DNA from: Halichondria panicea
Lineage: Eukaryota; Porifera; Demospongiae; Suberitida; Halichondriidae
Direction of reading: 5' to 3'
Assembly (NCBI RefSeq): GCF_963675165.1
Contig: NC_087390.1
Location: 5,866,250 to 5,930,249, forward strand
Length of the DNA: 64,000 bases
Within the stretch, counting starts at the first letter, position 1; the number at the start of each line of letters is the position of its first letter. This document shows, in pieces, positions 1-48,597 of this stretch. The notes below the pieces were generated by a model. It had not been told where the DNA came from, did not search any database, and saw only the letters and a program-made list of their open reading frames with translations. Both the position numbers and the translations under genes were made by a program.

Positions 1-131
1 CAACATACTTCACCGGATATTGTACGATCGTGCTTTGATGCTTTAAACAATTATAACTGACCATCACTTAAAATTACCTGGGCACAGACTGTTACATGTA
101 CAGTGTAGGTAGAATGATTGAATGACCTCAC

Positions 132-3100
132 CTATAATGTCGACGTTTGCCTTTGCAATGGAATCTTTTGTGGCCCTCTCCACATGCTTGGAGATATACA
201 GTTCACAGAGTGACATGAGCCGACTCATCACGTATCTGTTGAAGGGGAGGAGTCAATAAGGCATGTGATACACAAGCTCTGAAAATAACAAGGTCTTTAC
301 TTTAATAATAATTATACTGTATAGCGGGTTATTTTCGAAGCACTAAATTTTCGCGGATTGCCCTAACTAAAATATTTTGAGGATAGTGGTTCAAATGACC
401 ACACCCCTACAGTAAACCAATTTTTCGAGGCACTAAATTTTCGTGTTTGTGGGTCATCCTCGAAAATAACCAGCTATACGGTATTTGAGGGGTTGGATGT
501 ACAGTATACGTGCCTATAATTATACGTGCCTATAATTATACGAGCCTATAATTATACATGCCTATAATTATGTACCGTAGACCATTATACTCAAAACCAA
601 ACTCACGGGGCAACACTACTCCTAAACTCAGCAATTTCCTTCACCTGTTGGCCAGCTCCAATATTCCCATAGAGTCCCCCTCCTCAATGGGGGCGTGGTC
701 AGTGTACAGGTACTCTAGGAAACTCACAAACGTGTCCAATGGAATATCAGGGATGGATATCTGAGGAGGGAGTTGATTACTTAAATTCTATTGGAATTCG
801 AAAATAGAAATAAACGCATGGTTGCTAAGCAACTACAGTAGGGCATCTCTGTGACTCTGTGACTTGCGGGTAGAGCTAGCTTTAAGAATATAACGTACGT
901 AGAATGGAACACGAACACAAAGTGCATGCTAACAAACAGAGTCGTCTATTTGGGAGATGCTTCTTGTGTGCTGAATTCTCTGATTCTAGGAATAATAAAT
1001 TCAATTTTTCGAAAGAAGTGAGGTAATAATTAATTTTTGTGATTAGCTATCTGTCGCTATGACAACCTACCTCGTTAGCTGCACTCTCTTGGAAGGCTCC
1101 AGACAACATGGCCGACATGACCTCACATCGTGTGGTCAGTACTAGTCGATGGGCAGGGACAACCACACCCTCCACCAGGAAACACACGTCAGAGAACAAT
1201 CCCTGTGTGTGTGTGTGTGTGGGTGTGTGTGGGTGTGTGTGGGTGTGTGTGTGGGTGTGTGTAGTGTGTGGGTGGTGTGTGTGGATGTGGCAAGTCTTTG
1301 CTTTTTAAAAACACAATATTACAGATCTCTCTAAACGCTGATATATTCGGAACTCAAAATCAGTTAATTACGATAATAAGATGTGCACAAAATTTAATAA
1401 CCAGCACAAAAATGGCAAACCTTGTTGAGAAATAGTTGCTTAGTGACACTGATATTTCGATCATTCAACCACGTTATAATTTTCTGATTCAGAAACTCCT
1501 CCCCTTTACGAACATTCTCACACATGAGCTCCAACTCGGGTAAATTCAGCAGCTGAGAAATCTTGATTGTTTCGTCGAAACCTTCGCTCTCTTTGTCTAG
1601 TTCCACCACTCCAGTGTAGAGGAACGTTAGGGCACGAGATAGCGCCAGCTCTGTCACCATGGAGGGGTCAAAGGTCATCTCTGTCACCTGTTTACCGTCC
1701 GAGTCAGGTCTATAGCAAACAAAAAATTTCATCATACACATTTTTGTGTATGATTTATCGTAAAACGCACTCAAAAACTAAGAATTGATAGACAAAGTGT
1801 GTATATTATTCTCTTAATTACCTGTCTTCAATGTGGAGCATTCCCTCCAGCTGCCCCAAGTTTACCGTCTCCATGGTAACCTTCTTTAGTCGTGCCTTGT
1901 CCCACCCATCACATAGACTATCAACCTGGAGGAGGTGGGAGAGTGGACACAAAGCCATTGCTTAATTGGAACACTGTAATATACAGAGCACTCGGTACTT
2001 TACGTCTCACAACCATATACTGGTAATGATACAGTATTTGAGCCTATAGCAGCAACTACCAGAATTATACAGAGGAAAATAAGATTTGAACGTTATGACG
2101 AGACTTTAAGAACGGTATATAGTGGTGGCATGCAGTCGAACAGCAACTGGAATAAATGCTCAAAGTCTCCATAGCATGTGTTTGGACCTGTGTTAGCAGG
2201 CCACCCTCTAGAATACAGCCAGGTTAATGGGCCCCAAAGTCTCTCCATAGCATGTGTTTGGACCTGTGTTAGCAGGCCACCTCTTTATTACAGCCACTGT
2301 TGGTCTGCCCAAGAGTGACCATCATAGATGTGTGGTATCCACAGCATTTGCCGAGATACGCAGGAACTAAATAGACAAACCTCACCTTAACTTCCTGAGT
2401 CACTCCGAGCAGCTGTCTAAACAAATCTGAAGCAGATGCTAGCACATAGCGATGGGCATGATACGTCTTGCCCTCCAGTCTCAAGACCATGTCCGAATGA
2501 GATGGGTTGTTTATCGTTTTTGCCCGATCAGAGGAAAACGTTGAAATTTGGACTTTTATTGCGGGTGCTTTTTTATGGTCTGGTAGTTGAGGGGGCGGGG
2601 AGGGTCCGCTGACATTTGTTGAAAATGATTGGTCGGATGATTGGGAGCGCCTGTAAGGAAAGTTACAAGGTGACAATAATGTAAACCAGATTTGACTAAT
2701 GCAGTGAAACCTGTCTATAGTGGTCACCCTTGGGCAGACCAACAGTGGCTGTATTCTAGAGGGTGGCCTGCTAACACAGGTCTAAACACATGCTACGGAG
2801 ACTTTGAGGCCCATTACCTAGCGATACCGTTTAGGGGGTTATTTTCGAGGCACTCAATTTTTGCGAATTGGTCAAACTAAACATTCTGCGGATTTCATTT
2901 TCGAGGATAGAGGTTCAAACGACCACACCCCTAGGCGGCAGTAGAAAGGTCATTCAATACCGGAAGTAAACGAGCCACTAAACTTCTGAGGTTCGAGATC
3001 AATCCGCAAAAATAAATATAGTACCTTGCCGCTATACGGCATTATATAGAATGCTTAGGATGACCATAAGGACAATACTCCTACTATTTCACTCACTGTT

Positions 3101-4760
3101 TTCTGCCTGCCCTTGTTAGCCCTGCCCTCACACAAAAGTCCATTGCCTCATTCACACCAGCTCCTGTTAGGGCACTTGTCTCATAGTAACCCACCGCTCC
3201 TGAGGGGAAGAGGGGGGAGGTCATACGGTTATCAGATACAAATAAATGTCACTTTCATACGTAACATTGGATTAAAACGTGCGTTCTTCTAGAAACTTTA
3301 CACACATTAAATAAAGCATCTTTGAACGGCCATAACTTTGTTCTGTTGGTGATATGATTTTTTGAAAAAGTTCAGCCAGGTTAATGGGCCCAAGTCTCCA
3401 TAGCATGTGTTTGGACCTGTGTTAGCAGGCCACCCTCTATAATACAGCCAGGTTAATGGGCCCAAGTCTCCATAGCATGTGTTTGGACCTGTGTTAGCAG
3501 GCCACCCTCTATAATACAGCCAGGTTAATGGGCCCAAGTCTCCATAGCATGTGTTTGGACCTGTGTTAGCAGGTCACCCTCTATAATACAGCCAGGTTAA
3601 TGGGCCCAAGTCTCCATAGCATGTGCTTGGACCTGTGTTAGCAGGTCACCCTCTATAATACAGCCAGGTTAATGGGCCCAAGTCTCCATAGCATGTGTTT
3701 GGACCTGTGTTAGCAGGCCACCCTCTATAATACAGCCAGGTTAATGAGTCCCAAAGTCTCCATAGCATGTGTTTGGACCTGTGTTAGCAGGCCACCCTCT
3801 ATAATACAGCCAGGTTAATGGGCCCAAGTCTCCATAGCATGTGTTTGGACCTGTGTTAGCAGACCACCCTCTATAATACAGCCAGGTTAATGGGCCCAAG
3901 TCTCCATAGCATGTGTTTGGACCTGTGTTAGCAGGCCACCCTCTATAATACAGCCAGGTTAATGGGCCCAAGTCTCCATAGCATGTGTTTGGACCTGTGT
4001 TAGCAGGCCACCCTCTATAATACAGCCAGGTTAATGGGCCCAAGTCTCCATAGCATGTGTTTGGACCTGTGTTAGCAGGCCACCCTCTACAATACAGCCA
4101 CTGTTGGTCTGCCCAAGGGTGACCACTAGAGACAGGGTTTCACTCTAGCAGAAATACGGAAGAATTCCTCACCAAGATCTTTTGCCAGTTGCAGAGCATC
4201 TTCGCGGGGGACCTCAGTGTAGTCACCATTGACCTCTTGACCTCTGAGGTCACACTTGAGCCCCAGTAGCAGCACAGGTGTGTTCGGACAAAAGTGACGA
4301 ACTTCAGGTATCCACTTCTCTTTGATGTTTGCAAATGAAATTGGATATTTTATGGAAAATGCAACAAGTAAAATGTCCGTCTGGGGATAGGAAAGTGGGC
4401 GGAGCCTATCATAGTCTTCTCCACCAACTGTAGAGAATTAGCGTATGTAATAAACCAGCAGATGTGTTTCAAGTGTCGAGAGAGAAAAATTTACACATCC
4501 ATAACTTCACAGTATTTGCTCAAACAGAATCAATATCATAATATATAATTACAAGTGCAAACGACAATCAGGTACGTACCTGTATCAAATGGCACCACTG
4601 TGACTGGTTTTCCGTCGACCATAATTAGAGAATAATAGCTTTCAAACAAAGTGGGGATGTATTCACTGGGGAATGAATTGGTCATCCATTGTATAAGAAA
4701 ACATGTTTTACCCACTGCACCATCTCCAACTATGACCACCTTCAGTTGCATGTGTGACAT
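132..4760 (-). CDS. RhoBTB-like protein, copy A (type 1, 3' end outside window)
   Basis: Leftmost gene of the array. Exons read in reverse from the start codon at 4760: 4580-4760, 4173-4427, 3097-3199, 2386-2650, 1822-1925, 1421-1709, 1071-1202, 645-760 and 132-235. Exons 10 and 11 lie beyond the window, so this is a partial record and not a pseudogene. All visible exons are open and their phases close. The P-loop (GDGAVGKT) is intact. The switch II segment reads [11 protein letters not shown], so glycine replaces the catalytic glutamine of Rho proteins and valine replaces the alanine before it. The guanine-binding motif is LKCD. The exon 6 donor is the weak GTTTGC, whereas B, C, D, G and H have GTATGC. 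The exon 9 acceptor has lost about 10 bases of its pyrimidine tract compared with B. See copy B for the full architecture. Confidence 0.85.
315..483. mobile_element. Foldback MITE in intron 8 (copy A; also in the other copies)
   Basis: Starts TACTGTATAGCGGGTTATTT and ends in the near reverse complement AAATAACCAGCTATACGGTA, about 169 bases, with internal TTCGAGGCACTAAATTTTCG repeats. Orthologous insertions lie at 6485-6653, 13579-13747, 20604-20843, 26310-26478, 32869-33108, 38468-38653 and 44107-44275. D and F carry extra 28-base repeats of a GGTTCAAATGACCACACCCC motif. The insertion predates the array. Confidence 0.75.
1203..1290. repeat. CA microsatellite forming the exon 7 acceptor (copy A)
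   Basis: On the gene strand a run of CA and CCCACACA units ends directly in CAG before exon 7, with no ordinary polypyrimidine tract between. The same arrangement precedes exon 7 in all copies (for example 7352-7403, 14446-14502, 21542-21600, 45070-45130), with copy-specific lengths. Confidence 0.85.
2160..2345. repeat. 72-bp element, intron 4 of copy A (opposite to the intron 3 copy)
   Basis: About two units of the minisatellite motif ending in CACTGTTGGTCTGCCCAAG. The inverted counterpart lies at 2704-2800 in intron 3, so the two arms flank exon 4 (2386-2650) at distances of about 50 bases on each side. The arrangement recurs in all eight copies, for example at 8300-8480 with 8840-8935 in copy B. 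Confidence 0.85.
2704..2800. repeat. Inverted 72-bp element, intron 3 of copy A
   Basis: Contains GTGAAACCTGTCTATAGTGG followed by TCACCCTTGGGCAGACC, the reverse complement of the distal end of the intron 2 array (about 4100-4141). The termini resemble the inverted repeats of a non-autonomous DNA transposon from which the minisatellite may derive. Confidence 0.75.
2825..3041. mobile_element. Related foldback MITE in intron 3 (copy A; also in the others)
   Basis: Starts TACCGTTTAGGGGGTTATTT, ends CCGCTATACGGCA, about 217 bases, with TTCGAGGCACTCAATTTTTG near the left end. It is the same family as the intron 8 element and as the element at 61766-62003 in an unrelated gene. Some copies keep GAAAACAACCCGCTATACGG at the right end, while A, E and F have a short deletion there. 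Confidence 0.7.
3373..4099. repeat. 72-bp minisatellite, intron 2 of copy A (about 10 units)
   Basis: Head-to-tail units of 72 bases, each containing GTTAATGGGCCCAAGTCTCC and ending CCACCCTCTATAATACAGC. One unit has AGTCCCAAAG in place of GGCCCAAG. The array ends in a segment containing GGTCTGCCCAAGGGTGACCA, which recurs inverted at 2720-2750. As 72 is divisible by 3, the array gives spurious open frames of 24-residue repeats. Confidence 0.95.
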
Positions 4761-4909
4761 CTTCGAGAAAAAGAGATAGATCAGAACAGCGAAGTCATGA
4801 AAGTGTAAATACGGTAAAGGTCGACTGGTAAAGGGGTCTGTACATGTACAAGGTACAAGATCAGAACACCAATGTACCAGGAAATCATTTTATGTTTGTG
4901 GTTGAGATA

Positions 4910-4917
4910 TGACGTCA
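4910..4917. promoter_or_regulatory. CRE palindrome upstream of copy A
   Basis: TGACGTCA, the consensus full CREB/ATF site, 150 bases upstream of the copy A start codon in the 298-base spacer to the copy B stop codon. Binding is inferred from the motif only. Confidence 0.5.
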
Positions 4918-5058: not shown

Positions 5059-8000
5059 TCAGGAGAGTCCTCGTCTCTTATGGCTCTTGACAGCTGCTCC
5101 ATCTTCTGATGTCCTGGGGGGGTCATCTGTAGTAGCGAGGGGATTGTCATGCATGGTGGGAGGTATATAGTACAGTGTCTACCCCCTGGGCAGATCATGG
5201 CCATGCAACAGTGGCTGCAATAAAGAGGGTCCAAACACATGCTATGGAGAGTCTGGGATCCATTAACCTGGCTGTATTATAGAGGGTGGCCTGCTTATAA
5301 GTTATAGTTATAACGTGGGCACGAGGGCTGAGTGCAATATATGCCATGCATCTCAAGGGCATAGCAACATAACACTGTCTTAGTAACACAATTAATAAAT
5401 AGAACTGCACAAAATGACAGAGACAACGCTATAGACACATCTGCATTTGCAGCGTATACGATTTGCATGCATGGACCAACGAATGGCTTATAGCCTCACC
5501 TCACTATAAAACGGCCCCATTCCACTACTGCTGCAAAACTCCACCGTCAGTACTCGACCAGCCCTCCTATATATATGTACGGTCTACCCTCACAACCAAG
5601 CCAAAGAAGCTCGCCTCTACACTGCTGTAAACAGCTCAAGCCCCCAGTAAAAAAAGCCGCTTCCATAGATGCTTATAGTATTATGGTGAAGCAGAATTAA
5701 AGGACTTATCTAAGCCATGCATCATGCACGAGGACTAGACTAGGAACACAGAATCTTCCACAAAATAAACCTTGGACAATTTTAAAACCTGCATGGTTGC
5801 ACTTTGATACTCGTATTTCTCATCATGCTATTTAATTATGTCAGTCTGACTATAAACCACACCTACCTGACTCCTCCCCCTCAGTATCGAGGTACTTGGC
5901 CTTATACTCATTCATAGCGGCCTCGTAAGGTGGCCATCGATGCTCCTCCACATAAGAGAGGTTGTCTTGGTCCAATTGCAGGAATTGTTCATTTTCCTCA
6001 AAATCAGCATAATTGCTTGATATGAAGTGGAGGCACCAAGTGCTGAGCTGAGACGCGTTGTGCAGCTGTGAGGAGAGCAGGATTCCTGTGTGTGTGTGTG
6101 GGGGGAGTGGGCGTTGGAAATGTGTGGAGTGGGTGTTGGGTGGGTGTGTGTGTGTGGGGAGTGGGCGTTATATTTGGCTGGCAACATATTTGTATGATCG
6201 TGCTTTGATGCTTTAAACAATTATAACTGACCATCACTTAAAATTATTTGGGCACAGACTGTTACATGTAGGTAGAATGATTGAATGACCTCACCTATAA
6301 TGTCGACGTTTGCCTTTGAAATAGAATCTTTAGTAGCCCTCTCCACATGCTTGGAGATATACAGTTCACAGAGTGACATGAGCCGACTCATCACGTACCT
6401 GTTGTGAGGGAGAGGGGAGGAGTCAATAAGGCATGTGATACACAAGCTCTGAAAATAACAAGGTCTTTACTTTAATAATAATTATACTGTATAGCGGGTT
6501 ATTTTCGAAGCACTAAATTTTCGTGGATTGCCCTAACTAAAATATTTTGAGGATAGTGGTTCAAATAACCACACCCCTACAGTAAACCAATTTTTCAAGG
6601 CACTAAATTTTCGTGTTTCTGGGTCATCCTCGAAAATAACCAGCTATACGGTATTTGAGGAGTTGGATGTACAGTATACGTGCCTATAATTATACGTGCC
6701 TATAATTATACGTGCCTATAATTATGCACCGTAGACCATTATACTCAAAACCAAACTCACGGCAACACTCCTAAACTCAACAATTTCCTTCACCTGTTGG
6801 CCAGCTCCAATATTCCCATAGAGTCCCCCTCCTCAATGGGGGCGTGGTCAGTGTACAGGTACTCTAGGAAACTCACAAACGTGTCCAATGGAATATCAGG
6901 GATGGATATCTGAGGAGGGAGTTGATTACTTAAATTCTATTGGAATTCGAAAATAGAAATAAACGCATGGTTGCTAAGCAACTACAGTAGGGCATCTCTG
7001 TGACACTGTGACTTGCGGGTAGAGCTAGCTTTAAGAATATAACGTATGTAGAATGGAACATGAACACAAAGTACATGCTAACAAACAGAGTCGTCTATTT
7101 GGGAGATGCTTCTTGTGTGCTGAATTCTCTGATTCTAGGAATAATAAATTCAATTTTTCGAAAGAAGTGAGGTAATAATTAATTTTTGTGATTAGCTATC
7201 TGTCGCTATGACAACCTACCTCGTTAGCTGCACTCTCTTGGAAGGCTCCAGACAACATGGCCGACATGACCTCACATCGTGTGGTCAGTACTAGTCGATG
7301 GGCGGGGACAACCACACCCTCCACCAGGAAACACACGTCAGAGAACAATCCCTGTGTGTGTGGGTGGGTGTGTGTGTGGGTGTGTGTGTGTGTGTGGGTG
7401 TGTGGTGGTGATAAAACATACGTCTTTGCTTCTATCGAGCAATGTATTTTAAATGGATCTCCCTAAAGATGATATATCTGGACTCAAAAATCAGTTAATC
7501 ATGATAGTAAGATGCACAGGCAAGTACGAGATAACCAGCACAAAAATGGCATACCTTGTTGAGAAATAGTTGCTTAGTGACACTGGCATGTCGATCATTC
7601 AACCACGTTATAATTTTCTGATTAAGAAACTCCTCCCCTTTACGAGCATTCTCACACATGAGCTCCAACTCGGGTAAATTCAGCAGCTGAGAAATCTTGA
7701 TTGTTTCGTCGAAACCTTCGCTCTCTTTGTCTAGTTCCACCACTCCAGTGTAGAGGAACGTTAGGGCACGAGATAGCGCCAGCTCTGTCACCATGGAGGG
7801 GTCAAAGGTCATCTCTGTCACCTGTTTACCGTCCGAGTCAGGTCTATAGCAAACAAAAAATTTCATCATACACATTTTTGTAGAAAAATTTATCGTAAAA
7901 CGCACTCAAAAACTAAGAATTGATAGACAAAGTGTGTACATTATTCTCTTAATTACCTGTCTTCAATGTGGAGCATTCCCTCCAGCTGCCCCAAGTTTAC

Positions 8001-11000
8001 CGTCTCCATGGTAACCTTCTTTAGTCGTGCCTTGTCCCACCCATCACATAGACTATCAACCTGGAGGAGGTGGGAGAGTGGACACAAAGCCATTGCTTAA
8101 TTGGAACACTGTAATATACAGAGCACTCGGTACTTTACGTCTCACAACCATATACTGGTAATGATACAGTATTTGAGCCTATAGCAGCAACTACCAGAAT
8201 TATACAGAGGAAAATAAGATTTGAACGTTATGACGAGACTTTAAGAACGGTATATAGTGGTGGCATGCAGTCGAACAGCAACTGGAATAAATGCTCAAAG
8301 TCTCCATAGCATGTGTTTGGACCTGTGTTAGCAGGCCACCCTCTAGAATACAGCCAGGTTAATGGGCCCCAAAGTCTCTCCATAGCATGTGTTTGGACCT
8401 GTGTTAGCAGGCCACCTCTTTATTACAGCCACTGTTGGTCTGCCCAAGAGTGACCATCATAGATGTGTGGTATCCACAGCATTTGCCGAGATACGCAGGA
8501 ACTAAATAGACAAACCTCACCTTAACTTCCTGAGTCACTCCGAGCAGCTGTCTAAACAAATCTGAAGCAGATGCTAGCACATAGCGATGGGCATGATACG
8601 TCTTGCCCTCCAGTCTCAAGACCATGTCCGAATGAGATGGGTTGTTTATCGTTTTTGCCCGATCAGAGGAAAACGTTGAAATTTGGACTTTTATTGCTGG
8701 TGCTTTTTTATGGTCTGGTAGTTGAGGGGGCGGGGAGGGTCTGCTGACATTTGTTGAAAATGATTGGTCGGATGATTGGGAGCGCCTGTAAGGAAAGTTA
8801 CAAGGTGACAATAATGTAAACCAGATTTGACTAATGCAGTGAAACCTGTCTATAGTGGTCACCCTTGGGCAGACCAACAGTGGCTGTATTCTAGAGGGTG
8901 GCCTGCTAACACAGGTCCAAACACATGCTACGGAGACTTTGAGGCCCATTACCTAGCGATACCGTTTAGGGGGTTATTTTCGAGGCACTCAATTTTTGCG
9001 AATTGGTCAAACTAAACATTCTGCGGATTTCATTTTCGAGGATAGAGGTTCAAACGACCACACCCCTAGGCGGCAGTAGAAAGGTCATTCAATACCGGAC
9101 GTAAACGAGCCACTAAACTTCTGAGGTTCGAGGTCAATCCGCAAAAATAAATATAGTGCCTTGAAAACAACCCGCTATACGGCATTATATAGAATGCTTA
9201 GGATGACCATAAGGACAATACTCCTACTATTTCACTCACTGTTTTCTGCCTGCCCTTGTTAGCCCTGCCCTCACACAAAAGTCCATTGCCTCATTCACAC
9301 CAGCTCCTGTTAGGGCACTTGTCTCATAGTAACCCACCGCTCCTGAGGGGAAGAGGGGGGAGGTCATACGGTTATCAGATACAAATAAATGTCACTTTCA
9401 TACGTAACATTGGATTAAAACGTGCGTTCTTCTAGAAACTTTACACACATTAAATAAAGCATCTTTGAACGGCCATAACTTTGTTCTGTTGGTGATATGA
9501 TTTTTTGAAAAAGTTCAGCCAGGTTAATGGGCCCAAGTCTCCATAGCATGTGTTTGGACCTGTGTTAGCAGGCCACCCTCTATAATACAGCCAGGTTAAT
9601 GGGCCCAAGTCTCCATAGCATGTGTTTGGACCTGTGTTAGCAGGCCACCCTCTATAATACAGCCAGGTTAATGGGCCCAAGTCTCCATAGCATGTGTTTG
9701 GACCTGTGTTAGCAGGTCACCCTCTATAATACAGCCAGGTTAATGGGCCCAAGTCTCCATAGCATGTGTTTGGACCTGTGTTAGCAGGTCACCCTCTATA
9801 ATACAGCCAGGTTAATGGGCCCAAGTCTCCATAGCATGTGTTTGGACCTGTGTTAGCAGGCCACCCTCTATAATACAGCCAGGTTAATGTCCCAAAGTCT
9901 CCATAGCATGTGTTTGGACCTGTGTTAGCAGGCCACCCTCTATAATACAGCCAGGTTAATGGGCCCAAGTCTCCATAGCATGTGTTTGGACCTGTGTTAG
10001 CAGGTCACCCTCTATAATACAGCCAGGTTAATGGGCCCAAGTCTCCATAGCATGTGTTTGGACCTGTGTTAGCAGGCCACCCTCTATAATACAGCCAGGT
10101 TAATGAGTCCCAAAGTCTCCATAGCATGTGTTTGGACCTGTGTTAGCAGGCCACCCTCTATAATACAGCCAGGTTAATGGGCCTCAAAGTTTCCATAGCA
10201 TGTGTTTGGACCTGTGTTAGCAGGTCACCCTCTATAATACAGCCAGGTTAATGGGCCCAAGTCTCCATAGCATGTGTTTGGACCTGTGTTAGCAGGCCAC
10301 CCTCTATAATACAGCCAGGTTAATGGGCCCAAGTCTCCATAGCATGTGTTTGGACCTGTGTTAGCAGGTCACCCTCTATAATACAGCCAGGTTAATGGGC
10401 CCAAGTCTCCATAGCATGTGTTTGGACCTGTGTTAGCAGGCCACCCTCTATAATACAGCCAGGTTAATGGGCCCAAGTCTCCATAGCATGTGTTTGGACC
10501 TGTGTTAGCAGGCCACCCTCTATAATACAGCCAGGTTAATGAGTCCCAAAGTCTCCATAGCATGTGTTTGGACCTGTGTTAGCAGGCCACCCTCTATAAT
10601 ACAGCCAGGTTAATGGGCCTCAAAGTTTCCATAGCATGTGTTTGGACCTGTGTTAGCAGGTCACCCTCTATAATACAGCCAGGTTAATGGGCCCAAGTCT
10701 CCATAGCATGTGTTTGGACCTGTGTTAGCAGGCCACCCTCTATAATACAGCCAGGTTAATGGGCCCAAGTCTCCATAGCATGTGTTTGGACCTGTGTTAG
10801 CAGGTCACCCTCTATAATACAGCCAGGTTAATGGGCCCAAGTCTCCATAGCATGTGTTTGGACCTGTGTTAGCAGGCCACCCTCTATAATACAGCCAGGT
10901 TAATGGGCCCAAGTCTCCATAGCATGTGTTTGGACCTGTGTTAGCAGGTCACCCTCTATAATACAGCCAGGTTAATGGGCCCAAGTCTCCATAGCATGTG

Positions 11001-11845
11001 TTTGGACCTGTGTTAGCAGACCACCCTCTATAATACAGCCAGATTAATGGGCCCAAGTCTCCATAGCATGTGTTTGGACCTGTGTTAGCAGGCCACCCTC
11101 TATAATACAGCCAGGTTAATGGGCCCAAGTCTCCATAGCATGTGTTTGGACCTGTGTTAGCAGGCCACCCTCTACAATACAGCCACTGTTGGTCTGCCCA
11201 AGGGTGACCACTATAGACAGGGTTTCACTCTAGCAGAAATACGGAAGAATTCCTCACCAAGATCTTTTGCCAGTTGCAGAGCATCTTCGCGGGGGACCTC
11301 AGTGTAGTCACCATTGACCTCTTGACCTCTGAGGTCACACTTGAGCCCCAGTAGCAGCACAGGTGTGTTCGGACAAAAGTGACGAACTTCAGGTATCCAC
11401 TTCTCTTTGATGTTTGCAAATGAAATTGGATATTTTATGGAAAATGCAACAAGTAAAATGTCCGTCTGGGGATAGGAAAGTGGGCGGAGCCTATCATAGT
11501 CTTCTCCACCAGCTGTAGAGAATTAGCGTATGTAATAAACCAGCAGATGTGTTTCAAGTGTCGAGAGAGAAAAATTTACACATCCATAACTTCACAGTAT
11601 TTGCTCAAACAGAATCAATATCATAATATATAATTACAAGTGCAAACGACAATCAGGTACGTACCTGTATCAAATGGCACCACTGTGACTGGTTTTCCGT
11701 CGACCATAATTAGAGAATAATAGCTTTCAAACAAAGTGGGGATGTATTCACTGGGGAATGAATTGGTCCTCCATTGTATAAGAAAACATGTTTTACCCAC
11801 TGCACCATCTCCAACTATGACCACCTTCAGTTGCATGTGTGACAT
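5059..11845 (-). CDS. RhoBTB-like protein, copy B (type 1, complete, reference model)
   Basis: Rho-related BTB-domain protein; family members act as atypical GTPases and Cullin-3 adaptors. Exons (minus): 11665-11845, 11258-11512, 9240-9342, 8521-8785, 7957-8060, 7555-7843, 7220-7351, 6794-6909, 6295-6398, 5867-6085 and 5059-5126. They total 1836 nt, 611 residues, and every intron phase closes. Rho-type GTPase domain: residues 1-179, with P-loop GDGAVGKT at 12-19, effector loop YIPTLFESY, switch [13 protein letters not shown] (Gly63 where Rac has Gln61), LKCD at 117-120 and an ETSAL motif. Proline-rich linker: 180-225. First BTB: starts near [10 protein letters not shown] (about 231), is interrupted by an insert encoded largely by exon 5 and resumes in exon 6, as in animal RhoBTB. 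Second BTB: 400-481 ([12 protein letters not shown]). C-terminal region: 482-611, ending [10 protein letters not shown] placed the start at the MSHMQLKVV methionine, which precedes the first beta strand. The last exon is the least certain; reading through its donor would end the protein early (GRCGL). Confidence 0.88.
6086..6170. repeat. CA microsatellite forming the exon 10 acceptor (copy B)
   Basis: CA-rich tract with interspersed CCCCACTC ends directly in CAG before exon 10. It is present at the same site in C (13180-13264), D (20204-20285), E (25911-25995), F (32469-32550), G (38076-38150) and, shortened, H (43717-43775). Confidence 0.85.
9516..11184. repeat. 72-bp minisatellite, intron 2 of copy B (about 23 units)
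   Basis: About 23 units of the same 72-base motif. Variant units (GGTCACC for GGCCACC, GGCCTCAAAGTTTCC, AGTCCCAAAG) recur in a fixed order, indicating expansion by duplication of multi-unit blocks of about 430 bases. Confidence 0.95.
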
Positions 11846-30900: not shown

Positions 30901-31207
30901 ACCAGCAGATGTGTTTCAAGGGTCGAGAGAGAAAAATTTACACATCCATAACTTCACAGTATTTGCTCAAACAGAATCAATATCATAATATATAATTACA
31001 AGTGCAAACGACAATCAGGTACGTACCTGTATCAAATGGCACCACTGTGACTGGTTTTCCGTCGACCATAATTAGAGAATAATAGCTTTCAAACAAAGTG
31101 GGGATGTATTCACTGGGGAATGAATTGGTCCTCCATTGTATAAGAAAACATGTTTTACCCACTGCACCATCTCCAACTATGACCACCTTCAGTTGCATGT
31201 GTGACAT
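24937..31207 (-). CDS. RhoBTB-like protein, copy E (type 1 body, type 2 last exon)
   Basis: Exons (minus): 31027-31207, 30620-30874, 29038-29140, 28327-28591, 27763-27866, 27361-27649, 27029-27160, 26603-26718, 26120-26223, 25692-25910 and 24937-24992. The model is 607 residues. Exons 1-10 are type 1 ([15 protein letters not shown]), while exon 11 and its flank are type 2: the tail ends VKNHKR four codons earlier than in B. The junction lies in intron 10, between about 25000 and 25560. The exon 6 donor is GTTTGC, as in A and F. An in-frame upstream methionine at 31375 would add 56 residues, but that frame is not kept in A-C and overlaps the promoter, so I kept the start at 31207. Confidence 0.85.
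29314..30546. repeat. 72-bp minisatellite, intron 2 of copy E (about 17 units)
   Basis: About 17 units with the variant-unit order of the first part of the B array, one multi-unit block shorter. Confidence 0.95.
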
Positions 31208-37049: not shown

Positions 37050-40000
37050 TCAGGAGAGTCCTCGTCTCTTATGGCTCTTGACAGCTGCTCCATCTTCTGA
37101 TGTCCTGGGGGGGTCATCTGTAGTAGCGAGGGGATTGTCATGCATGGTGGGAGGTATATAGTACAGTGTCTACCCCCTGGGCAGATCATGGCCATGCAAC
37201 AGTGGCTGCAATAAAGAGGGTCCAAACACATGCTATGGAGAGTCTGGGGTCCATTAACCTGGCTGTGTATTAACTTATAGAGGGTTATAAGTTATAGTTA
37301 TAACGTGGGCACGAGGGCTGAGTGCAATATATGCCATGCATCTCAAGGGCATAGCAACATAACACTGTCTTAGTAACACAATTAATAAATAAAACTGCAC
37401 AAAATGACAGAGACAACACTATAGACACATCTACATCTGCAGCGTATAAGATGGGCATGCATGGACCAACGAATGGTTTATAGCCTCACCTCACTATAAA
37501 ACGGCCCCATTCCACTACTGCTGCAAAACTCCACCGTCAGTGCTCGACCAGCCCTCCTATATATATGTACGGTCTACCCTCACAACCAAGCCAAAGAAGC
37601 TCGCCTCTACACTGCTGTAAACAGCTCAAGCCCCCAGTAAAAACAGCCGCTTCCATAGATGCTTATAGTATTATGGTGAAGCAGAATTAAAGGACTTATC
37701 TAAGCCATGCATCATGCACGAGGACTAGACTAGGAACACAGAATCTTCCACAAAATAAACCTTGAACAATTTAAAAACCTGCATGGTTGCACTTTGATAC
37801 TCGTATTTCTCATCATGCTATTTAATTATGTCAGTCTGACTATAAACCACACCCACCTGACTCCTCCCCCTCAGTATCGAGGTACTTGGCCTTATACTCG
37901 TCCATAGCGGCCTCGTAAGGTGGCCATCGATGCTCCTCCACATAAGAGAGGTTGTCTTGGTCCAATTGCAGGAATTGTTCATTTTCCTCAAAATCAGCGT
38001 AATTGCTTGATATGAAGTGGAGGCACCAAGTGCTGAGCTGAGACGCATTGTGCAGCTGTGAGGAGAGCAGGATTCCTGTGTGTGTGTGTGGGGGGAGTGG
38101 GCGTTGGGTATGTGTGGAGTTGGTGTGTGTGTGTGTGGGGAGTGGGTGTTATATTTGGCTGGCAACAGGATATTGTACGATGGTGCTTTGATGCTTTAAA
38201 CAATTATAACTGACCATCACTTAAAATTATCTGAGCACAGACTGTTACATGTAGGTAGAATGATTGAATGACCTCACCTATAATGTCGACGTTTGCCTTT
38301 GCAATGGAATCTTTAGTGGCCCTTTCCACATGCTTGGAGATATACAGTTCACAGAGTGACATGAGCCGACTCATCACGTACCTGTTGTGAGGGAGAGGGA
38401 AGGAGTCAATAAGGCATGTGATACACAAGCTCTGAAAATAACAAGATCTTTACTTTAATAATAATTATACTGTATAGCGGGATATTTTCGAGGCACTAAA
38501 TTTTCGCGGATTGCCCTAACTAAAATATTTTGAGGATAGTGGTTCAAATGACCACACCCCTACAGTAAACAATTTTTCGAGGTACTAAATTTTCGTGTTT
38601 CTGGGTCATCCTCGAAAATCTCGAAAATCTCAAAAATAACCAGCTATACGGTATTTGAGGGGTTGGATGTACAGTATACGAGCCTATAATTATGCGTGCC
38701 TATAATTATACGTGCCTATAATTATGCGTGCCTATAATTATGTACCGTAGACCATTATACTCAAAACCAAACTCACGGCAACACTCTTAAACTCAACAAT
38801 TTCCTTCACCTGTTGGCCAGCTCCAATATTCCTATAGAGTCCCCCTCCTCAATGGGGGCATGGTCAGTGTACAGGTACTCTAGGAAACTCACAAACGTGT
38901 CCAATGAAATATCAGGGATGGATATCTGAGGAGGGAGTTGATTACTTAAATTCTATTGGAATTCGTAAATAGAAATAAACGCATGGTTGTTAGCAATTAC
39001 AGTAGCGGATCTCTGTGACTTGGTAGAGCTAGCTATAAAAGCGTATGGAATATAACGTAAGTAGAATGGAACATGAACACAAAGTACATGCTAACAAACA
39101 GAGTCGTCTATTTGGGAGATGCTTCTTGTGTGCTGAATTCTCTGATTCTAGGAATAATAAATTCAATTTTTCGAAAGAAGTGAGGCAATAATTAATTTTT
39201 GTGATTAGCTATCTGTCTCTATGACAACCTACCTCGTTAGCTGCACTCTCTTGGAAGGCTCCAGACAACATGGCCGACATGACCTCACATCGTGTGGTCA
39301 GTACTAGTCGATGGGCAGGGACAACCACACCCTCCACCAGGAAACACACGTCAGAGAACAATCCCTGTGTGTGGGTGTGTGTGGTGTGTGTGTGTGTGGT
39401 GGTGATAAACATACGTCTTTGCTTCTATCGAGCAATGTATTTTAAATGGATCTCCCTAAAGATGATATATCTGGACTCAAAAATCAGTTAATCATGATAA
39501 TAAGATGCACAGGCAAGTACGAGATAACCAGCACAAAAATGGCATACCTTGTTGAGAAATAGTTGCTTAGTGACACTGACATTTCGATCATTCAACCACG
39601 TTATAATTTTCTAATTAAGAAACTCCTCCCCTTTACGAGCATTCTCACACATGAGCTCCAACTCGGGCAAATTCAGCAGCTGAGAAATCTTGATTGTTTC
39701 GCTGAAACCTTCGCTCTCTTTGTCTAGTTCCACCACTCCAGTGTAGAGGAATGTTAGGGCACGAGATAGCGCCAGCTCCGTCACCACATAGGGGTCAAAG
39801 GTCATCTCTGTCACCTGCTTACCGTCCGAGTCAGGTCTATAGCAAACAAAAATAATAAACAGACCGTTTTTAGAAAAAAATTTGTCATTACAATAAAATA
39901 AATGTTATTTATACAAAGTGTGGTGTACAATTACAGTGGAACCTCTGTTAACAACCACCTCCGAATAAAGGCCAGCTGTTATATAACGGCCATCAGGCAC

Positions 40001-42450
40001 TCAGGTACCAAATGAACAGTTTGTGTACAAAACAACCTCTCAACAAAGGCACCCTCTGTATAGTGGCCAAAACATTATTCCCCAAAGGTGTCCGTTATAG
40101 AGGGTTCCACTGTACCTTTCATCAATGTGGAGCATTCCCTCCAGCTGCCCCGAGTTGACTGTCTCCACAGTAACCTTCTTTAGTCGTGCCTTGTCCCACC
40201 CATCACACAGACTATCAACCTGGAGGAGGTGGGAGAGTGGACATTAAAGGAATCACTTAATTGGAACACTGTAATATACAGAGCACTCGGTACTTCACGT
40301 CTCACAACCATACTGGTAATGATACAGTATTTGAGCCTATAGCAGCAACTACCAGAAGAAAATAAGATTTGAACGTTATGACGAGGCTTTAAGAACGGTA
40401 TATATAGTGGTGGCATGCAGTTGAACAGCAACTGGAATAAATGTGAGAAATATTTTCCAGCTAGTTAAAATAGGCCTCAAAGTCTCCTAAGCATGTGTTT
40501 GGACCTGTGTTAGCAGACAACCTCTTTATTAGAGCCACTGTTGGTCTGCCCAAGAGTGACCATCATAGATGTGTGGTATCCACAGCATTTGTCGAGATAC
40601 GTAGGAACTAATAGAAAACCTCACCTTAACTTCCTGAGTCACTCTGAGCAGCAGTCTAAACAGATCTGAAGCAGATGCCAACACATAGCGATGGGCATGA
40701 TACGTCTTGCCCTCCAGTCTCAAGACCACGTCCGAATGAGATGGGTTGTTTATCGTTTTTGCCCGATCGGAGGAAAACGTTGAACTTTGGACTTTTATTG
40801 CGGGCGCTTTTTTATGGTCTGGTAGTTGAGGGGGCGGGGAAGGTCCGCTGACATTTGTTGAAAATGATTGGTCGGATGATTGGGAGCGCCTGTAAGGAAA
40901 GTTACAAGGTGACAATAATGTAAACCAGATTTGACTAATGCAGTGAAACCTGTCTATATAGTGGTCACCAACAGTGGCTGTACTAATAATTATACAGGGT
41001 GGCCTGCTAAGTAACACAGGTATAAACACATGCTACAAAAACTTTGAGGCCCATTACCTAGCGATATCGTTTAAGGGGTTATTTTCGAGGCACTAAATTT
41101 TTGCGGATAATTATTTTGCGGATCTCATTTTCGAGGATAGAGGTTCAAATGACCACACCCCTAGGCAGCAGTAGAAAGGTCTTCCAATACCGGAAGTAAA
41201 CGAGCCACTAAACTTTTTAAGTTCGAGGTCAATCCGCAAAAATATAGTGCCTTGCCGCTATACGGCATTATATAAAATGCTTAGGATGACCATAAGGACA
41301 ATACTCCTACTATTTCACTTACCGTTTTCTGCCTGCCTCTTGTTTTTCCCTTGCTAGCCCTGCCCTCATACCAGCGTCCATTGCCTCCATCACACCAGCT
41401 CCTGTTAGGGCACTTGTCTCATAGTAACCCACCGCTCCTGAGGGGGGAGGTCATACGGTTATTAGATACCCATAAATGTTCCTTTCGTACGTAACATTGG
41501 ATTAAAATGTGCGTGCTTCTAGAAATTTTTACACATGTTAAATGAAGCATCTTTGAACGGCCATAACTTTAGTTTCGTTGGTGATATGATTTTTTGAAAA
41601 AGCTCAGCCAGGTTAATGGGCCCAAGTCTCCATAGCATGTGTTTGGACCTGTGTTAGCAGGCCACCCTCTATAATACAGCCAGGTTAATAGGCCCCAAAG
41701 TCTCTATAGCATGTGTTTGGACCTATGTTAGCAGACCACCCTCTATAATACAGCCACTGTTGGTATGCCCCAGGGCGACCACTAGAGACAGGTTTTCACT
41801 CTGCAGAAATACGGCATAAATTCCTCACCAAGATCTTTTGCCAGTTGCAGAGCATCTTCGCGGGGGACCTCAGTGTAGTCACCATTGACCTCTTGACCTC
41901 TGAGGTCACACTGGAGCCCCAATAGCAGCACAGGTATGTTTGGACAAAAGTGACGAACTTCAGGTATCCACCTCTCTTTGATGTTTGCAAATGAGGTTGG
42001 ATATTTGATGGAAAATGCAACAAGGAAAATGTTCGTATCAGGATAGGAAATTGGGCGGAGCCTATCGTAGTGTTCTCCACCAACTGTAGAGAATTAGCAT
42101 ATGTGATTAAACTGTAGAGAATTAGCATATGTGATTAAACCAGCAGATGTGTTTCAAGGGTCGAGAGAAAAGATGTTTACATAAATCCATAACTTCACAT
42201 TATTTGCTCAAAAAGAATCAATATCATGTTTTATATATTACAAGTGCAAACGACATCATACAGTTAGGTACGTACCTGTATCCCATGGCAACACTATGAC
42301 TGGTTTTCCATCGACCATAATTTCGGCGGCATAGCTGTCAAACACAGTGGGGACGTAATCACTAGGGAATGAATTGGTGGTCCATCGAATGTAAAAACAT
42401 GTTTTACCCACTGCACCATCTCCAACCATGACCACCTTCACGTTTTGCAT
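37050..42450 (-). CDS. RhoBTB-like protein, copy G (type 2, sister of D)
   Basis: Exons (minus): 42276-42450, 41829-42083, 41323-41437, 40625-40889, 40116-40219, 39548-39836, 39233-39364, 38810-38925, 38278-38381, 37857-38075 and 37050-37117. The model is 613 residues. From exon 1 to intron 5 it matches D at an offset of 17780 with very few changes, and it shares the 12-base longer exon 3, LQCD and the exon 5 donor MITE. Switch II reads [11 protein letters not shown]. Intron 1 has a perfect 28-bp tandem duplication at about 42084-42140. Downstream of exon 6 it diverges from D: exon 8 encodes DISLDTF, shared with H, where the others have DIPLDTF. Confidence 0.85.
39932..40114. mobile_element. 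TA-flanked MITE at the exon 5 donor of copy G
   Basis: Same insertion at the same base as in D, sharing its internal sequence, so it was inherited through duplication of a type 2 ancestor. Confidence 0.85.
41605..41755. repeat. 72-bp minisatellite, intron 2 of copy G (2 units)
   Basis: Two units matching those of copy D except for a GT difference in the second. Confidence 0.9.
42084..42140. repeat. 28-bp tandem duplication, intron 1 of copy G
   Basis: ACTGTAGAGAATTAGCATAT plus TGTGATTAA occurs twice in tandem and duplicates the exon 2 acceptor (CTACAG on the gene strand). Copies D and H have one unit. Confidence 0.85.
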
Positions 42451-42740: not shown

Positions 42741-45700
42741 TCATCTCTTGTGGTTCTTGACAGCTGCTCCATTGTCCGATGTTCTGGGGGGGTCACCTGT
42801 AGTAGCGAGGGGATTGTCATGCATGGTGGGAGGTATATAGTACAGTGTCTACCCCTTGGGCAGACCATGGCCATGCAACAGTGGCTGCAATAAAGAGGGT
42901 CCAAACACATGTTATGGGGAGTCTGGGGTCCATTAACCTGGCTGTATTATAGAGGGTGGCCTGCTTATATAAGTTATAGTTATAACGTGGGCACGAGGGC
43001 TGAGTGCAATATATGCCATGCACCTCGAGTGCACCTCCCAAGGACATAGCAACATAACACTAGCTGTCTTAGTAACAATAGAACTGCACAAAATGACAGA
43101 GACAACGCTATAGACACATCTACATCTGCAGCATATAAGATTTGCATGCATGGACCAATTAATGAATGGCTTATATGGCCTCACCTCACTATAAAACGGC
43201 CCCATTCCACTACTGCTGCAAAAACAGCTCCACCTACCACTGCTGCTCATCAGTGCTCGACCAGCCTCAAGTCCCCATTAAAAACAGCCGCTTCCATAGA
43301 TGCTTATAGTATTATGGTGAAGCAGAATTAAAGGACTTATCTACGCCATGCATCATGCACGAGGACTAGACTAGGAACACAGAATCTTCCACAAAATAAA
43401 CCTTGGACAATTTTAAAACCCTCATGGTTGCACTTTGATACTCGTATTTCTCATCATGCTATTTAATTATGTCAGTATGACTATAAACCACACCCACCTG
43501 ACTCCTCCCCCTCAGTATCGAGGTACTTGGCCTTATACTCATTCATAGCGGCCTCGTAAGGTGGCCATCGATGCTCCTCCACATAAGAGAGGTTGTCTTG
43601 GCCCAATTGCAGGAATTGTTCATTTTCCTCAAAATCAGCGTAATTGCTTGATATGAAGTGGAGACACCAAGTGCTGAGCTGAGACGCATTGTGCAGCTGT
43701 GAGGAGAGCAGGATTTCTGTGTGTGTGTGGGGGGAGTGGGCGTTGGGTATGTGTGGAGTGGGGAGTGGGTGTTATATTTGGCTGGCAACATACTTCACAG
43801 GATATTGTACGATCGTGCTTTGATGCTTTAAACAATTATAACTGACCATCACTTAAAATTACCTGGGCACAGACTGTTACATGTACAGTGTAGGTAGAAT
43901 GATTGAATGACCTCACCTATAATGTCGACGTTTGCCTTTGCAATGGAATCTTTAGTGGCCCTCTCCACATGCTTGGAGATATACAGTTCACAGAGTGACA
44001 TGAGCCGACTCATCACGTACCTGTTGTGAGGGAGAGGGAAGGAGTCAACAAGGCATGTGATACACAAGCTCTGAAAATAACAAGGTCTTTACTTTAATAA
44101 TAATTATACTGTATAGCGGGCTATTTTCGAAGCACTAAATTTTCGCGGATTGCCCTAACTAAAATATTTCGAGGATAGTGGTTCAAATGACCACACCCCT
44201 ACAGTAAACCAATTTTTCGAGGCACTAAATTTTCGTGTTTCTGGGTCATCCTCGAAAATAACCAGCTATACAGTATTTGAGGGGTTGGATGTACAGTATA
44301 CGTGCCTATAATTATACGTGCCTATAATTATACGAGCCTATAATTATACGTGCCTATAATTATACGTGCCTATAATTATACATGCCTATAATTATACGAG
44401 CCTATAATTATACGTGCCTATAATTATACGTGCCTATAATTATGCACCGTAGACCATTATACTCAAAACCAAACTCACGGCAACACTCCTAAACTCAACA
44501 ATTCCCTTCACCTGTTGGCCAGCTCCAATATTCCCATAGAGTCCCCCTCCTCAATGGGGGCGTGGTCAGTGTACAGGTACTCTAGGAAACTCACAAACGT
44601 GTCCAATGAGATATCAGGGATGGATATCTGAGGAGGGAGTTGATTACTTAAATTCTATTGGAATTCGAAAATAGAAATAAACGCATGGTTGCTAAGCAAC
44701 TACAGTAGGGCATCTCTGTGACTATGTGACTTGCGGGTAGAGCTAGCTTTAAGAATATAACGTACGTAGAATGGAACATGAACACAAAGTACATGCTAAC
44801 AAACAGAGTCGTCTATTTGGGAGATGCTTCTTGTGTGCTGAATTCTCTGATTCTAGGAATAATAAATTCAATTTTTCGAAAGAAGTGAGGCAATAATTAA
44901 TTTTTGTGATTAGCTATCTGTCGCTATGACAACCTACCTCGTTAGCTGCACTCTCTTGGAAGGCTCCAGACAACATGGCCGACATGACCTCACATCGTGT
45001 GGTCAGTACTAGTCGATGGGCGGGGACAACCACACCCTCCACCAGGAAACACACGTCAGAGAACAATCTCTGTGTGGGTGTGTGTGGGTGTGTGGTGTGT
45101 GTGGGTGTGTGGTGTGTGTGTGTGTGGTGGTGATAAACATACGTCTTTGCTTCTATCGAGCAATGTATTTTAAATGGATCTCCCTAAAGATGATATATCT
45201 GGACTCAAAAATCAGTTAATCATGAAAGTAAGATGCACAGGCAAGTACGAGATAACCAGCACAAAAATGGCATACCTTGTTGAGAAATAGTTGCTTAGTG
45301 ACACTGGCATGTCGATCATTCAACCACGTTATAATTTTCTGATTAAGAAACTCCTCCCCTTTACGAGCATTCTCACACATGAGCTCCAACTCGGACAAAT
45401 TCAGCAGCTGAGAAATCTTGATTGTTTCGCTGAAACCTTCGCTCTCTTTGTCTAGTTCCACCACTCCAGTGTAGAGGAACGTTAGGGCACGAGATAGCGC
45501 CAGCTCCATCACCACAGAGGGGTCAAAGGTCATCTCTGTCACCTGCTTACCGTCCGAGTCAGGTCTATAGCAAACAAAAATCACAAATAATAAACAGACC
45601 GTTTTTAGAAAAAAATTTGTCATTACAACAAAATAAATGTTATTTATACAAAGTGTGGTGTACAATTACAGTGGAACCTCTGTTAACAACCACCTCCGAA

Positions 45701-48088
45701 TAAAGGCCAGCTGTTATATAACGGCCATCAGGCACTCAGGTACCAAATGAACAGTTTGTGTACAAAACAACCTCTCAACAAAGGCCACCTCTGTATAGTG
45801 GCCAAAACATTATTCCCCAAAGGTGTCCGTTATAGAGGGTTCCACTGTACCTTTCATCAATGTGGAGCATTCCCTCCAGCTGCCCCGAGTTGACCATCTC
45901 CATGGTAACCATCTTTAGTTGTGCCTTGTCCCAGCCATCACACAGACTATCAACCTGGAGGAGGTGGGAGAGTGGACACAAAGCCATCGCTTAATTGGAA
46001 CACTGTACTATACAGAGCACTCGGTACTTCACGTCTCACAACCATACTGGAATGATACAGTGTTTGAGCCTATAGCAGCAACTACCAGAATTATACAGAG
46101 GAAAATAAGATTTGAACGTTATGACGAGGCTTTAAGAACGGTATATAGTGGTGGCATGCACTCGAACAGCAACTGGAATAAATATGAGAAATATTAGTTA
46201 TTAAGTCTCCATAGCATGTGTTTGGACCTGTGTTAGCAGGCCACCTCTTTACTACAGCCACTGTTGGTCTGCCCAGGAGTGACCATCATAGATGTGTGGT
46301 GTCCACAGTACTTGCCGAGATACGCAGGAACTAAATAGACAAACTTCACCTTAACTTCCTGAGTCACTCCAAGCAGCTGTCTAAACAGATCTGAAGCAGA
46401 CGCCAACACATAGCGATGGGCATGATACGTCTTGCCCTCCAGTCTCAAGACCACGTCCGAATGAGATGGGTTGTTTATCATTTTTGCCCGATCAGAGGAA
46501 AACGTTGAACTTTGGACTTTTATTGTGGGCGCTTTTTTATGGTCTGGTAGTTGAGGGGGCGGGGAGGGTCCGCTGACATTTGTTGAAAATGATTGGTCGG
46601 ATGATTGGGAGCGCCTGTACAGAGAGTTACAAGGTGACAATAATGTAAACCAGATTTGACTAATGCAGTGAAACCTGTCTATATAGTGGTCACCAACAGT
46701 GGCTGTACTAATAATTATACAGGGTGGCCTGCTAAGTAACACAGGTCTAAACACATGCTACAAAAACTTTGAGGCCCATTACCTAGCGATATCGTTTAAG
46801 GGGTTATTTTCGAGGCACTAAAATAATGTTTGCAGATAAATAATTATTTTGCGGATCTCATTTTCGAGGATAGAGGTTCAAATGACCACACCCCTAGGCA
46901 GCAGTAGAGAGGTCTTTCGATACTGGAAGTAAACGAGCCACTAAACTTTTGAGGTTCGAGGTCAATCCGGAAAAATATAGTGCCTTGAAAACAACCCGCT
47001 ATACGGCATTATAGAATGCTTAGGATGACCATAAGGACAATACTCCTACTATTTCACCCACCGTTTTCTGCCTACCCTTGTTAGTCCTGCCCTCACACAA
47101 AAGTCCATTGCCTCCATCACACCAGCTCCTGTTAGGGCACTTGTCTCATAGTAACCCACCGCTCCTGAGGGGAGGAGGGGGGAGGTCATACGGTTATCAG
47201 ATACAAATAAATGTCACTTTCATACGTAACATTGGATTAAAACGTGCGTGCTTCTAGAAACTTTTACACACGTTAAATGAAGCATCTTTGAACGGCCATA
47301 ACTTTAGTTTCGCTGGTGATATGATTTTTTGAAAAAGCTCAGCCAGGTTAATGGGCCCAAGTCTCCATAGCATGTGTTTGGACCTGTGTTAGCAGGCCAC
47401 CCTCTATAATACAGCCATTGTTGGTATACCCCAGGGTGACCACTAGAGACAGGGTTTCACTCTAGCAGAAATACGGAAGAAATTCCTCACCAAGATCTTT
47501 TGCCAGTTGCAGAGCATCTTCACAGGGGACCTCAGTGTAGTCACCATTGACCTCTTGACCTCTGAGGTCACACTGGAGCCCCAGTAGCAGCACAGGTATG
47601 TTCGGACAAAAATGACGAACTTCAGGTATCCACCTCTCTTTGATGTTTGCAAATAAGGTTGGATATTTGATGGAAAATGCAACAAGGAAAATGTTCGTAT
47701 CAGGATAGGAAATTGGGCGGAGCCTATCGTAGTCTTCTCCACCAACTGTAGAGAATTAGCATATGTGATTAAACCAGGAGATGTGTTTCAAGGGTCGAGA
47801 GAAAAGATGTTAATTTACATAAATCCATAACTTCACATTATTTGCTCAAAAAGAATCAATATCATGTTTTATATATTACAAGTGCAAACGACATCATACA
47901 GGTAGGTACGTACCTGTATCCCATGGCGCCACTCTGACTGGTTTTCCATCGACCATAATTTCGGCGGCATAGCCGCCAAACACAGTGGGGACGTAATCAC
48001 TGGGGAATGAATTGGTGCTCCATCGTATGAAAAAACATGTTTTACCCACTGCACCATCTCCAACTATGACCACCTTCACGTTTTGCAT
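42741..48088 (-). CDS. RhoBTB-like protein, copy H (type 2, most divergent)
   Basis: Rightmost complete copy. Exons (minus): 47914-48088, 47491-47745, 47062-47164, 46350-46614, 45851-45954, 45276-45564, 44938-45069, 44512-44627, 43917-44020, 43498-43716 and 42741-42796. The model is 605 residues. It is type 2 (MQNVKVV, LQCD, donor MITE in intron 5) but lacks the 12-base exon 3 extension of D and G. The effector loop is changed to PTVFGGY, where D and G have PTVFDSY. Exon 7 begins RLFSDV in place of GLFSDV. Intron 2 keeps a single 72-bp unit, which could be the state before expansion. The tail ends VKNHKR, as in E. Its promoter carries an inserted zinc-finger-like fragment. Confidence 0.85.
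44299..44442. repeat. 16-bp tandem repeat, intron 8 of copy H (9 units)
   Basis: Nine units of TACGTGCCTATAATTA with minor variants (ACGAG, ACATG). The same site has about 4 units in A (507-570), 3 in B, C and D, 2 in E and F and 4 in G. Confidence 0.9.
45667..45849. mobile_element. TA-flanked MITE at the exon 5 donor of copy H
   Basis: Same insertion as in D and G with a few substitutions (GGCCACC for GGCACC). Confidence 0.85.
47340..47416. repeat. 72-bp minisatellite motif, intron 2 of copy H (1 unit)
   Basis: A single unit followed by CAGCCATTGTTGGTATACC. Confidence 0.85.
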
Positions 48089-48127
48089 ATTCTAGAAAAA
48101 GATCTCAGTTGATCAATGTGTAAATAC

Positions 48128-48195
48128 GTCACATCGTCGATTGCACGGGAGAGAAGCCTTACCTCTGTGAGAAGGATGACTGTGACAAGGTTGTA
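48128..48195 (+). other. Zinc-finger-like coding fragment inserted upstream of copy H
   Basis: Relative to D and G, about 65 bases replace a few bases of the promoter. On the plus strand one frame reads TGEKPYLCEKDDCDKVV, matching the linker and first cysteine pair of C2H2 fingers; a second frame just upstream reads SHRRLH, the preceding helix end. The two frames are offset as if two bases were lost. No open gene surrounds it, so it is probably a captured, decayed piece. Confidence 0.55.
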
Positions 48196-48281
48196 AGGCA
48201 AACTGGTAAAGGGTCTCTACATGTACATAGTAACTTGTACTTTGTACCCGGCGTTTCTAATGTTATGTTGCGGTTGAGATA

Positions 48282-48289
48282 TGACGTCA
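48282..48289. promoter_or_regulatory. CRE palindrome upstream of copy H
   Basis: TGACGTCA about 194 bases upstream of the start codon at 48088. The larger distance reflects the insertion at 48128-48195. Confidence 0.5.
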
Positions 48290-48433
48290 TTACATTCCAA
48301 TCCTATGAATATCATTATTTTAATACCCCACTACAGAAGTGATAATTCAGTGAAAAGTGATGGAATAAAAATCACACAAAAGTGCATAACACAAACAGAA
48401 TAACAGTTTGATCCACTTGTCATTAATGAACAG

Positions 48434-48597
48434 TCAGGAGAGTCCTCGTCTCTTGTGGTTCTTGACAGCTTCCGATGTCCTGGGGGGGGGTCATCTGTAG
48501 TAGCGAGGGGATTGTCATGCATGGTGGGAGGTATATAGTACAGTGTCTACCCCCTGGGCAGATCATGGCCATGCAACAGTGGCTGCAATAAAGAGCA
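48434..48597 (-). pseudogene. Relic of a ninth RhoBTB copy (last exon only)
   Basis: The block 48434-48494 aligns with RhoBTB exon 11 and is followed by the same downstream intron sequence to about 48597, where similarity to the array stops abruptly. Relative to the other copies it has a 9-base deletion and two extra G in the G run, giving 61 bases instead of 68 and breaking the reading frame. No other RhoBTB exon lies to its right. It marks the breakpoint of the tandem array. Confidence 0.75.

Follow-up and report, generated by a model that had tools for sequence, protein, structure and literature searches.

The stretch of DNA considered here (C14:5866250-5930249, 64,000 nucleotides of the 131.5 Mb genome of the sponge Halichondria panicea, referred to as the window) carries part of a head-to-tail array of minus-strand genes with 11 exons each. 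The array was traced by tblastn over 124 kb around the window, using as queries the peptides of the 11 exons of copy c3, which served as the reference model. Copies c1-c7 are whole in the window, together with exons 1-9 of c8; to the left of it were found the end of c8 (at -1127), a truncated relic copy, c9, retaining exons 1-4 only, and the complete copies c10 and c11, so that the array reaches window coordinate -14328. All 11 exons are present, in order, in each of the ten complete array copies. The original prediction of an eight-copy array was thus right as to the arrangement, strand and exon number, but not as to the count, because the edge of the window cuts the array. Spacers between the stop codon of one copy and the start codon of the next measure 276-308 bp from c1 through c9. 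None of 220 shuffled exon peptides gave a match at E ≤ 1e-3, so that a chance or frame artefact was rejected.

At the right edge, a relic at 48195-48595 (minus strand) consists of exon 11 (48487-48437) and the flanks of a copy lost upstream of c1. This relic, also part of the original prediction, was recovered by tblastn and by its matching flanks, the block 48595-48195 being 85-88% identical to the corresponding block in its eight longest matches among the other units. About 0.8 kb beyond exon 11 of the relic, past the 5' end of the array and within a GA repeat, lies a 200-N assembly gap (49370-49569), there being no other run of Ns in the joined 124 kb; given this gap, the 5' end of the array could be incomplete. 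The copies fall into an A type (c3, c4, c6, c7 and c8) and a B type (c1, c2 and c5). From right to left they are c1 (42741-48088, 605 residues, with a B-type exon 1), c2 (37050-42450), c3 (31516-36741, 611 residues), c4 (24937-31207, 607 residues), c5 (19251-24644, 613 residues, B-type in its 5' part), c6 (12153-18943, 611 residues), c7 (5059-11845, 611 residues) and c8 (1-4760 for exons 1-9, with exons 10-11 outside the window).

Three complete members lie outside the array, namely a tandem pair, C4a and C4b, on C4 (G000:C4:1710892-1727899) and a single gene on C8 (G000:C8:5676596-5683263), bringing the total to 13 complete 11-exon structures. The exon-1 peptide gave 24 matches in the genome, of which 14 correspond to these genes and the truncated c9 (11 in the array, two on C4 and one on C8); the other ten were judged by position only, and each of them lies more than approximately 30 kb from any BTB match listed. 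All counts from the genome searches are lower bounds.

The length of the coding sequence is divisible by 3 in 13/13 complete models and all internal junctions carry AG/GT, in agreement with the closing phases originally predicted. No splice junction was moved in c1-c8; in c10, c11, C4a, C4b and C8 the consensus is partly by construction, since some junctions were set at the nearest fitting AG or GT. The earlier statement that no open frame is broken in any copy does not hold for c2, in which an in-frame TAG is present in exon 6 (39613-39611, codon 380 of 614). The other 12 of the 13 complete structures are free of internal stops, and the predicted proteins of the intact genes comprise 605-632 residues, those of c1 and c4 being shortened by four residues each by a stop within exon 11. 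Mass pseudogenisation, against which the original prediction had also argued, was rejected by taking into account these intact frames and the purifying selection acting on the BTB and C-terminal half (dN/dS about 0.2-0.4).

The predicted proteins start with a G domain whose best PDB match is Rac1 (E 2.1e-58 for c3; 5.1e-68 for the G domain of c11). Pfam matches of c3 are Ras (4.7e-39), BTB in two stretches, and BACK. The alignment places a proline-rich linker (SPPPQLP, SPPPQMP, PPPPELP or PPPPQPP) between the G domain and the first BTB domain (BTB1), which is encoded by exons 4-6 and is bipartite with an insertion, the c3 segment scoring 45.4 bits over two stretches. The second BTB domain (BTB2) of c3 scores 74.5 bits, and BACK 23.2 bits as a fragment and 19.9 bits in the whole protein, the Pfam cut-off being 20.9. 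The BACK-like tail presumably resembles that of the human RhoBTB proteins. A CAAX prenylation signal is absent from all 13 complete copies, which end in HKR, GLS, RLFK, WIK or KSH. For BTB2 plus tail the best PDB matches are SPOP chains, aligned over 147 residues, with FQE opposite the MEE of SPOP; no RhoBTB chain is among the PDB matches listed for c3 and for BTB2 plus tail. The F-x-E sequence, which we take to be the phi-X-E Cullin-3 motif, is kept in 13/13 complete copies. Exons of cullins, of any cullin type, were found at five loci of the genome.

This order of domains (a Rac-like GTPase, then a proline-rich linker, the split BTB1, BTB2 and a BACK-like tail, without CAAX) fits that of RhoBTB, and together with the structure of the array it supports the original prediction of a lineage-specific tandem expansion of an atypical GTPase. 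The order, the split BTB1, the linker and the absence of CAAX are as described for RhoBTB in two articles (PMC4931677, PMC7600811). The latter also gives for RhoBTB a Cys for Asn/Thr in G4 and an altered G5. Neither change was found as a family-wide feature here, G4 being L-K/Q-x-D in all 13 complete copies and G5 retaining TSA in 11 of them. Such G4/G5 changes are here treated as a sub-trait of the described RhoBTB members, not as part of the architecture.

Within the G domain, numbered as in Rac1 from the PDB-match alignments, every copy retains Thr/Ser17, Asp57 and the Lys of the P loop, and only C4b and C8 lack the SAL of G5. The P-loop Gly is lost in C4b, and switch I is altered or partly deleted in C4a, C4b and C8. 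The Gln61 position is occupied by Gly in c1-c9, by Gln in c10, c11, C4a and C8, and by His in C4b; the simplest reading would be that Gln61 was lost once, before c1-c9 were amplified. In Ras and Rho GTPases the absence of Gln61 predicts weak GTP hydrolysis. By analogy, the G domains of c1-c9 would hydrolyse GTP slowly and stay GTP-bound.

The two halves of the protein differ in the selection that acts on them. Pairwise dN/dS values, calculated for five overlapping groupings of copies, were 0.78, 1.25 (A- versus B-type), 0.56, 0.84 and 1.30 (among C4a, C4b and C8) for exon 1. They were 0.56-0.86 for exons 2-3, 0.23-0.69 for the linker, 0.22-0.33 for the first part of BTB1, 0.30-0.43 for the insert and second part of BTB1, 0.19-0.26 for BTB2 and 0.20-0.39 for the tail. 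Nonsynonymous changes were in excess in the G domain as compared with the BTB/tail half (Fisher test) in three pairs picked by us as separate, c3-c5 (p 0.008), C4a-C4b (p 0.005) and c11-C8 (p 0.003); with exon 1 alone the corresponding values were 0.015, 0.06 (not significant) and 0.013.

Site models (M0, M1a and M2a) were fitted with our own code to eight, six or five sequences of the 13 complete copies. M0 omega was 1.22 for exon 1, 0.97 for the G domain, 0.49 for BTB1 and 0.41 for BTB2 plus tail. M2a was favoured over M1a for the G domain with 2dlnL of 46.0 (eight copies), or 24.1 after removal of gap-flanking columns. The value was 22.8 when C4b and C8 were left out, 20.5 when this set was also gap-masked, and 16.9 for the array only (five copies). 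For the BTB/tail half no positive class was favoured (2dlnL 0.27). Recombination among copies can inflate these tests. In 25 null simulations of the gap-masked eight-copy set, the only set simulated, 2dlnL did not exceed 7.1. With each part on its own tree, the site test was significant for exon 1 in 3/3 taxon sets and for exons 2-3 in two of three (array alone, p 0.15). Selected sites include positions in switch I and the beta2-beta3 strand as well as residues 56 and 61, with no significant concentration in the switch regions (15/46 versus 14/75, p 0.12). The G-domain half shows a signal of diversifying selection, and the BTB/tail half is under purifying selection. Of the 'dosage or divergent functions' put forward in the original prediction, divergent functions are the better supported because selection differs between the halves, and dosage the less so.

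These data suggest, with a probability that we would set at about 60%, that the locus encodes a tandem family of paralogous Cullin-3 E3 adaptors in which the docking half is held fixed and the faces of the G domain have been diversified. Judging by the motif and the similarity to SPOP, BTB2 plus the BACK-like tail would dock Cullin-3, and the surface of the Rac-like G domain may decide which partners are bound or in what way the adaptor is switched. Selection would hold the docking half nearly unchanged while diversifying the G domain, and the array would amount to a set of E3 adaptors with different G-domain faces. The putative docking through BTB2 differs from the situation in mammals, where the first BTB of RhoBTB is the one reported to bind Cullin-3 (PMC4931677).

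The most serious alternative, although a doubtful one, is ordinary birth-and-death duplication in which the G domain, as a pseudo-GTPase, decays under relaxed constraint and importance attaches to the BTB adaptor half alone. The turnover that it implies is documented by the one stop-bearing copy and the one truncated relic, and the substitution of Gln61 by Gly in c1-c9 and by His in C4b, the changed P-loop Gly of C4b, the lost or altered switch I of C4a, C4b and C8, and a G-domain M0 omega close to 1 are all in line with decay. However, M2a outperforms M1a while about a third of the G-domain sites are held at omega 0.06, and the P-loop Lys, Thr/Ser17 and Asp57, which persist in all copies, and the G5 SAL, which persists in all but two, also speak against decay.

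Also in favour of the diversified-adaptor reading, the copies are mosaics: c3 and c5 have identical exons 9-11 and introns 9-10, yet 24 nonsynonymous changes separate their first exons. The 5' flanks of c3 and of c1, c2 and c5 are separated by K2P distances of about 0.45-0.6 over 235-262 aligned bases, so that the A and B types possibly represent two promoter classes. At its downstream end the array has c10 and c11, which group with the C4 and C8 genes, apart from c1-c8, with support of 100 in the G-domain tree and 93 in the BTB/tail tree. Intron 2 contains a 72-bp minisatellite of between about 2 and 23 units, depending on the copy, located at 3373-4100 in c8 (10.1 units), 9516-11185 in c7, 16614-18283 in c6, 29314-30547 in c4 and 35932-36081 in c3; the unit is present on C1 and C17 as well, with at least 248 matches in the genome, array included. 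This minisatellite may have aided unequal crossing-over, which, along with gene conversion, would have enlarged the tandem RhoBTB family.

That the number of copies is partly an assembly artefact, with haplotypes or repeated overlaps inflating the count, is improbable, and the suspicion falls especially on c6 and c7. Their units differ by only two substitutions and two indels over about 7.09 kb and their coding sequences are identical, so that the pair either arose by duplication very recently or reflects a fault in the assembly. The remaining copies are too divergent from one another for such an explanation: exon 1 differs by up to 29% of residues (c3-c5), introns differ in length and at up to tens of percent of their sites, truncation and the stop codon each occur in a single copy, and no N gap interrupts the array. 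An artefact would presumably take away one or two copies at most. We regard as equally improbable a dosage expansion, in which near-identical copies boost the output of one protein, since the identity of the c6 and c7 proteins and the 97.5-100% mutual identity of c3, c4, c6, c7 and c8 are set against A-type, B-type, c10 and c11 proteins that differ most in the G domain, with selection for difference.

A further possibility, of similarly low probability, is that the array serves as a repertoire of integrated decoys of an immune type, in which the Rac-like domains would mimic Rho GTPases targeted by microbial effectors and the Cullin-3 adaptor would tag whatever grips them for destruction. It fits because of the Rac-like face, the selected sites, the conserved ubiquitin half and the tandem turnover, and it has a precedent in principle in mammalian pyrin and NLRP3, which guard Rho GTPases according to PMC11781737.

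Whichever use the proteins are put to, the array is a real lineage-specific RhoBTB expansion, larger than was originally noted, with a known architecture and new features. As in human RhoBTB1/2/3 and the cnidarian and bivalve proteins, a Rho-type G domain is followed by a proline-rich linker, two BTB domains, the first of them split, and a BACK-like tail, and CAAX is lacking, as stated for RhoBTB1/2. The differences are that 13 complete genes are present here as opposed to one to three elsewhere, that the G domain is close to Rac with a canonical TSA in G5 in 11/13 copies, that the Rho insert is shortened in the alignments, and that Gly replaces Gln61 in c1-c9. So strikingly Rac-like a G domain is expected if RhoBTB split early from Rac. 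Dictyostelium RacA, which combines a Rho-family G domain with two BTB domains, is described as RhoBTB-like in PMC8305917, but it is a single gene and not a multi-copy array. SPOP and other BTB-BACK Cullin-3 adaptors share the BTB2-plus-tail region; unlike SPOP, c3 has no MATH domain among its Pfam matches, the place of which is taken by an additional BTB and the Rac-like G domain.

In one review (PMC7600811) RhoBTB is stated as not found in sponges, placozoans and ctenophores, and the absence from sponges is repeated, by citation of that review, in a second (PMC8305917). Among the titles and abstract openings listed from the RhoBTB literature there was no report of a sponge RhoBTB or of a tandem RhoBTB array, which does not prove that none exists. 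Because these two reviews give none in sponges, 13 complete RhoBTB-type genes in a sponge would shift the place of the family in animal history. What is new is the signal of diversifying selection in the G domain, the Gly for Gln61 in c1-c9 and the purifying selection on the BTB/tail half. A Rho GTPase with a diversifying switch half and a fixed ubiquitin half is unusual, and the copies of the array are natural variants on which the control of Cullin-3 adaptors by RhoBTB G domains can be directly tested.

Some other loci came to attention during the genome searches. On C6 a 37-residue peptide (L047) has Ser at the position of the catalytic Cys, its best PDB match being silicatein alpha (E 1.5e-10, versus 2.9e-8 for cathepsin L2), and a second silicatein-looking peptide is found on C2; silicatein-like genes are in keeping with a sponge. 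Another candidate silicatein (L036, G000:C9:2570213-2570782) was rejected as looking cathepsin L-like; it reads SSWAFS, Ser taking the place of the expected catalytic Cys, and is possibly an inactive homologue. Seven papain-family peptidase matches on one strand form a tandem cluster of about 28 kb (G000:C8:493345-521186). A COX1 fragment (L050, G000:C1:5280527-5280718) with two in-frame TGA, read with table 4, is probably a nuclear copy of mitochondrial DNA, and the assembly yielded no fuller match to COX1. Finally, the window contains on the plus strand, at 50699-52018, a 439-residue open frame in which a single hydrophobic stretch and a long repeat region, rich in Asn and resembling a coiled coil, can be recognized by eye.
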